DNA of 35,794 bases from a virus, in the IMG/VR virus record IMGVR_UViG_3300030012_001099, positions 1 to 35,794 of that record; one strand, given 5' to 3'. Shown in pieces: positions 10,437 through 35,794 of the stretch. The notes beneath the pieces were generated by a model. The model was not told the origin of the DNA. It did not search any database and saw only the letters and a program-made list of their open reading frames with translations. A program made the position numbers and the translations under genes. How positions within the stretch are numbered: position 1 is the first letter of the stretch; every line of letters begins with the position of its first letter.

Positions 10437-10663
10437 TGAACCCACTGCAGGACATCACCAGCACCATTAAGACCCTGCGCGATGGCATCGCTAAGGGTTA
10501 CTGGACGCTGGAACATCTCGACACGCCACCACCAGGCAGCATCAGCAAAACCCATCGCAATCTGCTGCGCGACCAACCCAAGGCTGAGCAGGTTGAAGCG
10601 GGACCAAGCCCGCGAGACCTAGCACCAGCAACATTGCCTGAATCTCAACCTTTCGATTTCTGA
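10436..10663 (+). CDS. Small unknown protein
   Basis: 75 residues from ATG 10436 (TGATG overlap). It begins with an amphipathic helix (LQDITSTIKTLRDGIAKGYW), then TLEHLDTPPPG and a Pro/Glu-rich disordered tail ending in QPFDF. The final FDF resembles the end of SSB-interacting or clamp-binding peptides, but that is only a resemblance. Function unknown. Confidence 0.6.
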   Translation: MNPLQDITSTIKTLRDGIAKGYWTLEHLDTPPPGSISKTHRNLLRDQPKAEQVEAGPSPRDLAPATLPESQPFDF

Positions 10664-10929
10664 TGAGCAAACTAAGCCGTATCGAATTTGACGCCACACC
10701 TGAAGAGCGCAACAGGCTGAACATGGAGGCAGCCGCCCACGGCATGACACGCAAAGAGCTGATACGCGAACGTGTGTTTCATCCACAGCGTGCTGCATCA
10801 CTTGGCAAAGGCCGTGACTGCATTGATCGCGCCATCACCGCTGTTAGCCGCCAATACGGCGGGATGCCGAGGCACCAGCTTGAGCCGATGATCTACACGG
10901 TGATCTGCGCGTTAGCGGCTGATGCTTGA
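10663..10929 (+). CDS. Ribbon-helix-helix protein, relaxosome/MobC-like
   Basis: 88 residues from ATG 10663 (TGATG overlap). Residues 5-40, SRIEFDATPEERNRLNMEA then HGMTRKELIRERVF, match the ribbon-helix-helix found in plasmid mobilisation accessory proteins. The remainder is helical. There is no relaxase nearby, so it more likely regulates transcription or assists replication initiation. The following gene starts inside its last eight bases. Confidence 0.65.
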   Translation: MSKLSRIEFDATPEERNRLNMEAAAHGMTRKELIRERVFHPQRAASLGKGRDCIDRAITAVSRQYGGMPRHQLEPMIYTVICALAADA

Positions 10930-11713
10930 ACACGTTTTCTCCTGTGGCGGTGGTGTTCAATCCACCGCTTGTTTGGTCCTTGCTGCTCAGGGCCGCATTC
11001 CCTACAAAACGTTCATCTTTGCGAACGTCGGAGACAAGGCTGAAGACCCAAGGACCATCAAATACGTTGCGCAGGTACTCAAGCCTTATGCAGAGCAAAA
11101 CGGCATCCGTTGGGTAGACATCCAGCGCAGACGCCGAAATGGTGAGCCTGTTGATCTTTTCGAGGAACTACACCGGCCCATCAGATCCATCGACATTCCC
11201 GTGCGAATGACCAATGGAGCGCCAGGTAATAGAAACTGCACTGTCACTTTCAAGATCAAGCCGATCGCCAAATGGATCAAGGCAAATGCCCCTGGCTGCA
11301 TTCTTGGCAAGGGGATCAGCACTGACGAGCCACACCGCGCTACGCCATCGCGTGAGTCTGACGGCTACAGCAGCGCATACCCTTTGATTGAACTAGGCAT
11401 CAGTCGCGCTGATTGTCTTGAGCTTGTCAGGACTGCAGGGCTTCCACAGCCACCTAAATCGGCCTGCTGGTTCTGCCCTTACAAGACGACAGATCAATGG
11501 ATCACTCTTAGGCGTGAACGACCTGAGCTGTTTGCGCAGGCTGTAGAGATTGAAAACGTCTTGAATCAAAAGCGCCGTGAGATTGGGAAGGATCCTGTTT
11601 TTATGAGCGGTAGGTGTCGCCCATTAGCTGACGCTATACCGGATCAGCTGGGTTTATTCCCTGACTGGCTTGAAGAACAAGACGGTTGTGAGTCGGGATA
11701 TTGCATGACATGA
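10922..11713 (+). CDS. PAPS-reductase-like N-type ATP pyrophosphatase
   Basis: 263 residues. The ATP-binding PP-loop SCGGGVQSTA is at residues 7-16, with IFANVGDKAEDPRT following, as in the PAPS reductase/adenine nucleotide alpha-hydrolase superfamily. Cys106 (RNCTVTFKIKPI) together with Cys182 and Cys185 (SACWFCPYK) suggests an iron-sulfur or zinc site. True sulfate assimilation is unlikely in such a phage; relatives activate a substrate with ATP, as in thiolation, tRNA editing enzymes or DndC. It overlaps the methyltransferase-like gene by four bases, hinting at a joint nucleic-acid modification. Confidence 0.85.
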   Translation: MLEHVFSCGGGVQSTACLVLAAQGRIPYKTFIFANVGDKAEDPRTIKYVAQVLKPYAEQNGIRWVDIQRRRRNGEPVDLFEELHRPIRSIDIPVRMTNGAPGNRNCTVTFKIKPIAKWIKANAPGCILGKGISTDEPHRATPSRESDGYSSAYPLIELGISRADCLELVRTAGLPQPPKSACWFCPYKTTDQWITLRRERPELFAQAVEIENVLNQKRREIGKDPVFMSGRCRPLADAIPDQLGLFPDWLEEQDGCESGYCMT

Positions 11714-12309
11714 GAGTTCTTGTTGCTTGTGAGTACAGCGGCAGAGTGCGTGATGCCTTTCGCAGTCATGGCCACGACGCTTGGTCTTGTGATCTACTGG
11801 AGTGCGAGGCAGATCCTCGATGGCACTATCAATGCCCTGTCGAGGAGCTGTTGCACGATGGCTGGGATCTGATGGTGGCTCACCCCCCTTGCACCCATCT
11901 TGCCGTTAGCGGAAGTCGGCACTTTGCGCGCAAGATCGCAGACGGCTCACAGGCTGCAGCGTTAAATTTTGTCCGGCTGCTTATGGATGCTCCTATCAAG
12001 CGATGGGCGATTGAGAATCCTGTGAGTGTGATCAGCTCAGCGATCAAAAAGCCTGACCAGATCATTCAACCTTGGGAGTACGGCCACGGGGAAGTTAAGG
12101 CCACTTGCTTGTGGTTGAAGAACCTGCCAAAGCTAACGCCGACAAATTGTGTCGAGGGGCGAGAAGAGAGAGTGCATCTCATGCCGCCAAGGCCAAACCG
12201 TTGGAAGGAGCGCAGCCGGACTTATCTGGGTGTGGCTGCGGCTATGGGCGAGCAATGGGGCAACCGTGTGTTACCGCCAATTGCTGAGCAGTTGAGCTTT
12301 TTGGGTTGA
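11710..12309 (+). CDS. C5-cytosine-methyltransferase-like protein
   Basis: 199 residues from ATG 11710 (ATGA overlap). MRVLVACEYSGRVRDAF is a Rossmann SAM-binding start, HGHDAWSCDLL follows, and DLMVAHPPCTHLAVSG (Cys61) occupies the place of the catalytic Pro-Cys motif of C5-cytosine methyltransferases. Later come RWAIENPVSVI (ENP motif) and PWEYGHGEVKATCLWLKNLP. It is about half the length of a normal C5 enzyme and lacks an obvious target-recognition domain. Such short PPCT proteins are frequent in phages and their chemistry is unproven; they may methylate, hydroxymethylate or prime another modification. Confidence 0.8.
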   Translation: MRVLVACEYSGRVRDAFRSHGHDAWSCDLLECEADPRWHYQCPVEELLHDGWDLMVAHPPCTHLAVSGSRHFARKIADGSQAAALNFVRLLMDAPIKRWAIENPVSVISSAIKKPDQIIQPWEYGHGEVKATCLWLKNLPKLTPTNCVEGREERVHLMPPRPNRWKERSRTYLGVAAAMGEQWGNRVLPPIAEQLSFLG

Positions 12310-12334
12310 CGGTATGCCATGGGTATGCCATACT
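12306..12334 (+). promoter_or_regulatory. Sigma70-type promoter with two GGTATGCCAT elements
   Basis: -35 TTGACG (12306-12311), 17-base spacer, -10 CATACT (12329-12334). GGTATGCCAT is present twice, at 12311-12320 and 12322-12331, one helical turn apart. The upstream gene's TGA stop is inside the -35. Same layout as the promoters at 3867-3895 and 6193-6221 but on the other strand. Confidence 0.85.
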
Positions 12335-13368: not shown

Positions 13369-13447
13369 TGTCAAAATCAATCAGCTAATGTCAGCGTGGA
13401 AGTCAAGACATCAAACGAGTGGCATCAATCAACGATCTGAAATCTGA
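13256..13447 (+). CDS. Small unknown protein upstream of the ParB-like gene
   Basis: 63 residues from ATG 13256; a potential ATG 13226 would add ten. The core (KIRTLEDGCLRIQVGEYVGTV) is a typical beta-hairpin sequence and the end is helical. It overlaps the ParB-like start by 29 bases. Likely real by composition, but in competition with 13186-13368 for the same DNA. Confidence 0.5.
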   Translation: MHSELPTPNPKIRTLEDGCLRIQVGEYVGTVSSMHLVDVKINQLMSAWKSRHQTSGINQRSEI

Positions 13448-13940
13448 TCACAAAAATGCACGCCGTCGCACAGATCGTTCCTCTGACTTAATTAAAGAAT
13501 CACTGCAGCGTTACGGTGCTGCCCGTTCCATCGTCATCGACGAAGAGAACCGCATACTTGCCGGAAAGGGGATTATCGATGGCGCTAAAGCAGCAGGCAT
13601 TCGTCGTGTACGCATAATCGAGTCAGAAGGAGATGAAGTTATTGCTGTTCGTCGCACTGGCCTTTCAGAAGAAGACAAGGTTGGTTTAGCCCTTGCGGAC
13701 AACCGCACAGCAGACCTGTCCGAATGGGATCAGGAAATGCTGCATCAACTTTCTGAAGAGCATGACCTGTCCCCATGGTTTGAGCAGGAAGACGAAGAAG
13801 TTCGTCGTCACGCACGCCTGATGGAACTCGACCCCGCTTACTGCGATGTCATCGTCAAACGCTGGGAGGACTTCACAGGCAATACCGCCATTTGTCACCC
13901 TGCTGCGGCACACTTTGATCAGGAGGAGCCTCAGGGCTGA
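13419..13940 (+). CDS. ParB/Srx-like protein with C-terminal remnant of a DNA methyltransferase
   Basis: 173 residues from GTG 13419. Residues 2-115 are a ParB-N-like domain: SINDLKSDHKNARRRTDR, SIVIDEENRILAGKGIIDGAK, ADNRTADLSEWDQEML. In many phages this domain is fused to an N6-adenine or N4-cytosine methyltransferase. Here the methyltransferase is missing except for its final piece, ARLMELDPAYCDVIVKRW followed by EDFTG (about residues 130-155). Neither DPPY nor FxGxG occurs, so it should not methylate. It precedes the terminase genes with TGATG coupling, suggesting a packaging-linked DNA-binding role. Confidence 0.75.
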   Translation: MASINDLKSDHKNARRRTDRSSDLIKESLQRYGAARSIVIDEENRILAGKGIIDGAKAAGIRRVRIIESEGDEVIAVRRTGLSEEDKVGLALADNRTADLSEWDQEMLHQLSEEHDLSPWFEQEDEEVRRHARLMELDPAYCDVIVKRWEDFTGNTAICHPAAAHFDQEEPQG

Positions 13941-35644: not shown

Positions 35645-35794
35645 GGATGAGATCCCAGAAATTCAAATTCCTGAACTGAATGTTGTCGTAGATCTGCCGG
35701 AGGTAGCGATACCAGATGTGCCGCCTGTAACGCTGGAACTTGGCGTGCCAGTCATTGATATGCCGTCTTTCAGCCCGTTGGATTTTGAGCCAGA
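35643..35794 (+). CDS. Proline-rich membrane protein, 5' part (continues at position 101)
   Basis: ATG 35643 begins MDEIPEIQIPELNVVVDLPE and stays open to the window end; on the circular genome it continues at position 101 and ends at 458, giving 169 residues. The ATG overlaps the start codon of the opposite-strand gene by two bases, and no clear ribosome-binding site is seen. The one mismatch between the terminal copies (35696 against 2) is a silent third-position change in a Leu codon. Confidence 0.8.
   Translation, partial: MDEIPEIQIPELNVVVDLPEVAIPDVPPVTLELGVPVIDMPSFSPLDFEP
35695..35794 (+). repeat. Terminal direct repeat of positions 1-100
   Basis: 99 of 100 bases equal positions 1-100; only position 2 (A) against 35696 (G) differs. 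The length and location suggest an assembly overlap from a circular or circularly permuted genome rather than a biological terminal repeat. Confidence 0.95.

Follow-up and report, generated by a model that had tools for sequence, protein, structure and literature searches.

Two overlapping genes of a marine cyanosiphovirus, encoding an SspD-like ATP-pyrophosphatase and a minimal C5-methyltransferase, are probably independent accessory cargo

The DNA analyzed here, referred to as the window, comprises the 35,794 nucleotides of the viral record IMGVR_UViG_3300030012_001099. Judged by its large terminase, which is 72–78% identical to those of the Synechococcus phages S-H1 and KBS-S-2A and the Prochlorococcus phages MED4-117 and MED4-184, its source is a marine cyanobacterial virus (cyanosiphovirus). 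The same peptide, PEVAIPDVPPVTLELGVPVIDMPSFSPLDFEP, is encoded at both ends of the window (positions 1–100 and 35690–35794), which suggests a circular or terminally redundant genome; an exact end-to-end repeat of the window was searched for by script and none was found. Within the window, an open reading frame for a PP-loop ATP-pyrophosphatase (gene 1, labelled PAPS) overlaps another one for a C5-methyltransferase-fold protein (gene 2, labelled MT), and the coordinates and the overlap that a preliminary description of this DNA had assigned to them were exact. The features of the locus are collected in Table 1.

Table 1. Genes, motifs and regulatory elements at the locus, in window coordinates
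Feature	Coordinates	Strand	Basis
Small RHH/NikA-like protein bounding the accessory slot on its left	10663..10929	+	Pfam NikA-like E 1.4e-4, below cut-off; slot comparison
Gene 1, SspD/DndC-like PP-loop ATP-pyrophosphatase ('PAPS reductase', phrog_424), 263 aa	10922..11713	+	Profiles, AF2, dN/dS
PP-loop GGGVQS, gene 1 residues 9–14	10946..10963	+	Sequence; conserved in relatives
C106 in the CT-x3-K-x2-P motif of gene 1, candidate cluster ligand	11237..11239	+	Alignment
C182-x2-C185 of gene 1, candidate cluster ligands	11465..11476	+	Invariant; aligned with SspD CxFC and DndC/APR CxxC
C-terminal tail CESGYCMT of gene 1, with C256 and C261	11687..11710	+	Invariant in relatives
Four-base ATGA overlap of gene 1 and gene 2	11710..11713	+	Sequence
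Gene 2, minimal C5-methyltransferase-fold protein (phrog_757), 199 aa	11710..12309	+	PHROG, AF2, structure match, dN/dS
PPC (motif IV) of gene 2, residues 59–61, C61 presumed nucleophile	11884..11892	+	Sequence; invariant
ENP (motif VI equivalent) of gene 2, E102-N103-P104 replacing ENV	12013..12021	+	Sequence; E102 invariant
Sigma70-like promoter TTGACG-N17-CATACT over palindrome GTATGCCATAC, heads the next unit	12306..12334	+	Sequence

Gene 1 matched phrog_424 (E 1.2e-36), which bears the PHROG label 'moron, auxiliary metabolic gene', and its AF2 model (pLDDT 80.9, the last 20 residues being unreliable) presented a PP-loop ATPase fold. The PP-loop had been described as intact; its sequence is a variant of SGGxxS that departs from the canonical SGGKDS, yet all of its positions except residue 9 were invariant in 32 aligned relatives. 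The three cysteines previously put forward as potential cluster ligands (C106, C182 and C185) were indeed invariant in the alignment of relatives sharing 65–99% identity, as were two additional ones, C256 and C261, in the C-terminal tail. The CT and CxxC motifs and the final CESGYCMT were kept even in relatives at 45–50% identity. For pairs with unsaturated dS, the dN/dS of gene 1 against its closest relatives was 0.02–0.04, and that of gene 2 was about 0.04 for the window versus L077, its one unsaturated pair with the window, and 0.02 for L003 versus L093. Pairwise dN ranged from about 0.01 to 0.16 against dS values of 0.3–2 or saturated, most of the other pairs being near or at synonymous saturation. 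Such low dN against dS indicates that neither gene is a chance open reading frame and that both have been kept as proteins under strong purifying selection.

The family of gene 1 had to be decided by sequence, since the structure matches of its model, namely PAPS reductase 7rge (Z 14.4, the top one), NcsA (13.5), TtuA (12.8) and LarE (12.3), were near-equal and the fold alone does not discriminate among them. NcsA, TtuA and LarE are three-cysteine [4Fe-4S] thiolases. DndC and SspD were absent from the VIA-align structure-match lists, an absence that carries no weight on identity. The PADLOC SspD profile matched gene 1 (E 1.5e-17, residues 100–215), and hhalign comparisons with proteins drawn from genomes gave 98.8% (E 7e-17, 190 columns) for SspD, 15.9% (108 columns) for DndC and 3.3% for 12 proteins of the APS-reductase family. 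Pfam PAPS_reduct reached an E value of 0.0065 and 16.9 bits, below its cut-off of 22.5 bits, and no cysH model was found for gene 1 in NCBIfam. In the alignment, APS reductases presented CC, CxxC and a C-terminal ECGLH, whereas gene 1 presented CT and CxxC and the end CESGYCMT; SspD and DndC preserved CT and CxxC, like gene 1, and the SspDs examined terminated in GCxxC plus two residues. Profiles and motifs support the placement of gene 1 with the DNA-sulfur enzymes, as had been suggested before, with SspD as its nearest relative, and not with the CysH/APS reductases of sulfate assimilation. On the same motifs and profiles, a cysH metabolic gene was discarded as a candidate.

Gene 2 matched the phrog_757 profile (E 2.6e-70), and a Pfam scan of it matched no family. 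Its AF2 model (pLDDT 79.6) was superimposed on M.HhaI (Z 11.1, rmsd 3.5, 184 aligned) and on DNMT3A/3B (Z about 11), and the match extends over the full length of this 199-residue protein, leaving no room for a target-recognition domain; the earlier view of a short C5-methyltransferase-like protein having PPC and lacking that domain was thereby upheld. PPC with C61 and EN with E102 were invariant among its relatives, and, judged by sequence, the position of QxRxR (motif VIII) may be taken by a conserved K130-x-T132 region. The family comprised 1051 records at E values up to 1e-5, and 159 of these matched over 80% or more of the query; the phrog_757 C5-methyltransferases were stand-alone genes in the annotated examples inspected. 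Gene 2 is an ordinary member of a widespread phage C5-methyltransferase family. No literature was found on the activity of short phage C5-methyltransferases.

The preliminary description had regarded the two genes as a candidate coupled modification system, to be checked by conserved adjacency in other phages. Among 75 IMG/VR contigs carrying a gene 1 relative at 65–99% identity (loci and contigs are designated by L numbers), gene 2 was found directly 3′ of gene 1 in four (L001, L003, L004 and L008), all of them close relatives of the window. The gene 2 profile was detected in 2 of 50 other gene 1 records, many of which are fragments: in L012 it lies on the opposite strand, kilobases from gene 1, and in L036 it lies upstream. 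Conversely, the gene 1 profile was detected in 1 of 44 gene 2 records, again including many fragments, and this was the L003 contig already counted among the coupled four. The samples of both genes consist of close relatives only and most contigs are fragments; in the records of at least 30 kb (13 with gene 1, 10 with gene 2), both genes occurred together in one. In a TerL-anchored sample, gene 1 was present in only one locus. The two genes have largely proved to be rare neighbors, and since each of them usually occurs without the other in relatives, they probably do not compose a two-part modification system. In the gene 2 tree, the window copy was sister to that of L077 (92% identity, no gene 1; support 100/91), and the other copies linked to gene 1 fell in another clade, which also holds the unlinked L093; the starred branches contradict a grouping of all linked copies in one clade. 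The pair has either formed several times or been lost and regained repeatedly, a pattern that could hint at some mutual benefit.

The comparison of the accessory slot that begins at the RHH gene gave a similar picture. L093 matched the window as far as the RHH gene end (10922) and again from the start of gene 2 (11710), gene 1 being absent, and L002 carried a gene 1 98% identical to that of the window and then diverged, with no gene 2. Among 13 RHH-anchored loci, 10 had neither gene, one had gene 1 only, one had gene 2 only and one was a truncated fragment with gene 1; across relatives, the slot was found empty, with either gene singly, or with both. Slot comparison and co-occurrence led us to reject a coupled two-gene system. 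Moreover, gene 1 formed the same four-base junction with unrelated 3′ genes, RusA-like in L034, VRR-nuclease-like in L045 and L047, and primase-helicase in L068, the ATGA overlap being explained by the conserved 3′ end of gene 1, where Cys-Met-Thr codons are followed by TGA in many members. Similarly, in slots with gene 2 alone, the start of gene 2 overlapped or abutted the stop of the preceding gene. The overlap is non-specific on both sides; therefore, adjacency and overlap say little about function here.

The promoter previously reported to begin right after the pair is present, but it heads the next unit rather than the pair, as the element was also observed 5′ of other accessory genes in relatives. 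In several relatives (L285, L290, L284, L288 and L289), the accessory slot contained up to four copies of a sigma70-like promoter lying over the palindrome GTATGNCATAC, apparently heading small genes. This repeated regulated promoter might additionally act in recombination between cassettes. Further downstream (13419–13940), the window encodes a ParB-like protein of 173 aa, whose counterparts in L001, L002, L086 and L073 are ParB plus DNA-methyltransferase proteins of 391–415 aa. The methyltransferase part is missing from the window protein and its last ~40 residues are retained, so that, by its sequence, it looks like an in-frame remnant of such a fusion.

The downstream neighbors of gene 1 at the 75 loci, read from sequence and possibly including some spurious open reading frames among the automatic picks, fell into about 30 clusters, such as VRR-nuclease-like, portal, primase-helicase and N6/N4 methyltransferase, and no conserved third partner was found among them. 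Gene 1 relatives adjoined terminase genes in several unrelated phages (L026, L040–L044, L053, L061, L073, L156 and L160); they were located 3′ of TerL in cyanosiphovirus contigs and in an apparent Mu-like prophage; in the Gordonia phage PotPie, TerS and TerL flank the gene. In L022, L007, L009 and L155, the gene 1 relatives adjoined DNA methyltransferases of other types (Dcm-like, N6/N4, Dam-like). Bacterial homologues with CESGYCMT were restricted to two in 84,980 genomes, one in an apparent Mu-like prophage and the other next to a Dam-like gene on a short contig, and neither was in an Ssp operon.

The Ssp system (SspABCD) performs DNA phosphorothioation. When the 62 proteins of the window were compared with PADLOC, gene 1, as SspD, was the sole Ssp/Dnd match, with no SspA, SspB, SspC or Dnd partner, and no cysteine desulfurase was found in the window or in 20 further records bearing gene 1 (21 in all). 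Consequently, an SspD-like role would depend on partners supplied by the host, or on a different mechanism. For the gene 1 family, the data favor a DNA-sulfur (SspD-type) enzyme lacking its usual partners. SspD has been described as an ATP-pyrophosphatase and a binding partner of the desulfurase SspA (PMC7188994), and a three-cysteine [4Fe-4S] center was described in DndC (PMC10853773). Most probably, gene 1 would use ATP to activate (adenylate) an acceptor, and sulfur from a host cysteine desulfurase would be delivered, via a three-cysteine Fe-S cluster (C106, C182, C185) and/or the C256/C261 pair, to this acceptor; the SspD relationship makes nucleic acid the likeliest one. Gene 2 would probably methylate cytosines of the phage DNA with a specificity that is low or motif-intrinsic, and each protein would independently blunt host restriction. 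We consider it probable, with somewhat better than even confidence, that a variable slot between the RHH gene and the next promoter-headed unit carries the two genes as accessory cargo independent of each other, a stand-alone SspD-like ATP-pyrophosphatase and a minimal C5-methyltransferase acting in these roles. A more specific proposal, which we hold to be rather unlikely, is that the stand-alone phage enzyme relies on a host cysteine desulfurase only, with no SspB or SspC, and introduces sulfur into the phage DNA, as a phosphorothioate or a thio-base, as a counter-defence that has spread among unrelated phages in the form of a single mobile gene.

Other readings can be weighed against independent cargo. 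That both enzymes make a protective modified base as one DNA-modification system would agree with their four-base overlap, their likely co-transcription, the plausible action of both families on DNA, the same pair in four further contigs, the pairing in two gene 2 clades, and other DNA methyltransferases near gene 1 relatives (L022, L007/L009, L155); we judge it very unlikely, given that 71 of the 75 gene 1 contigs have no gene 2 directly 3′, 48 of 50 records have none anywhere, 43 of 44 gene 2 records have no gene 1, single-gene and empty slots exist, and the overlap is not specific. The thiolation by gene 1 of tRNA or a small molecule, in the manner of TtuA, NcsA or LarE, instead of DNA is consistent with its fold matches to these three-cysteine-cluster enzymes and with a window in which no DNA-targeting partner was found; it is nevertheless unlikely, as the nearest profile is that of SspD and gene 1 is repeatedly found beside replication, packaging or methyltransferase genes.

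The auxiliary metabolic reading, by which gene 1 would be a cysH-type APS/PAPS reductase raising host sulfur assimilation, draws on the Pfam PAPS_reduct E value, the phrog_424 label and the top structure match, to PAPS reductase. The sub-threshold Pfam bit score, the low hhalign value for APS reductases, the missing CC and catalytic ECGLH tail and the lack of an NCBIfam cysH model make it quite improbable. We attribute a comparably small probability to a counter-defence decoy that titrates the host desulfurase or disturbs phosphorothioation-based defence and leaves the phage DNA unmodified: an SspD-like protein without partners and with a stand-alone, mobile distribution would suit this role, but the invariance of all the putative catalytic elements of gene 1 suggests an enzyme.

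It is routine to class phage 'PAPS reductases' among the auxiliary genes of sulfur metabolism, and an SspD-type reading would alter the interpretation of such genes in viromes. Phage homologues of PAPS reductase have been flagged as worth further study, with a possible role in DNA modification (PMC11437467). The pair also exemplifies how adjacency and a four-base overlap can mislead in a dense phage genome, and the remaining interest lies in the phage-borne SspD-like family without partners.

Compared with known systems, gene 2 is 60–68% identical over about 185 aa to the phrog_757 proteins Bcep1 gp12 and cyanophage 9515-10a gp12, from which it does not differ materially. Gene 1 has its fold in common with CysH/APS reductase, but not the CC motif or ECGLH, and the profile match is not significant. 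With DndC it shares the PP-loop and the three aligned cysteines; however, DndC is longer, at about 450 aa against 263 aa in gene 1, and has a C-terminal half of its own, the profile match is weak, and gene 1 has no dnd partners. PptA (PDB 21fy), for which no paper was found, is a solved but distant relative (E 6e-5, residues 100–227). Unlike the SspD of SspABCD, gene 1 is phage-borne and stand-alone, without sspA, sspB or sspC neighbors, and it differs from SspD in its PP-loop (GGGVQS versus the SGGKDS of SspD and DndC) and in the spacing of the C-terminal cysteine pair (4 versus 2). The two nevertheless share the PP-loop fold, the cysteines of CT-x3-K-x2-P and CxxC, the GISTDE/GIRADE region, the segment past CxxC (W followed by HP or RP and next by E) and the C-terminal cysteine pair itself.
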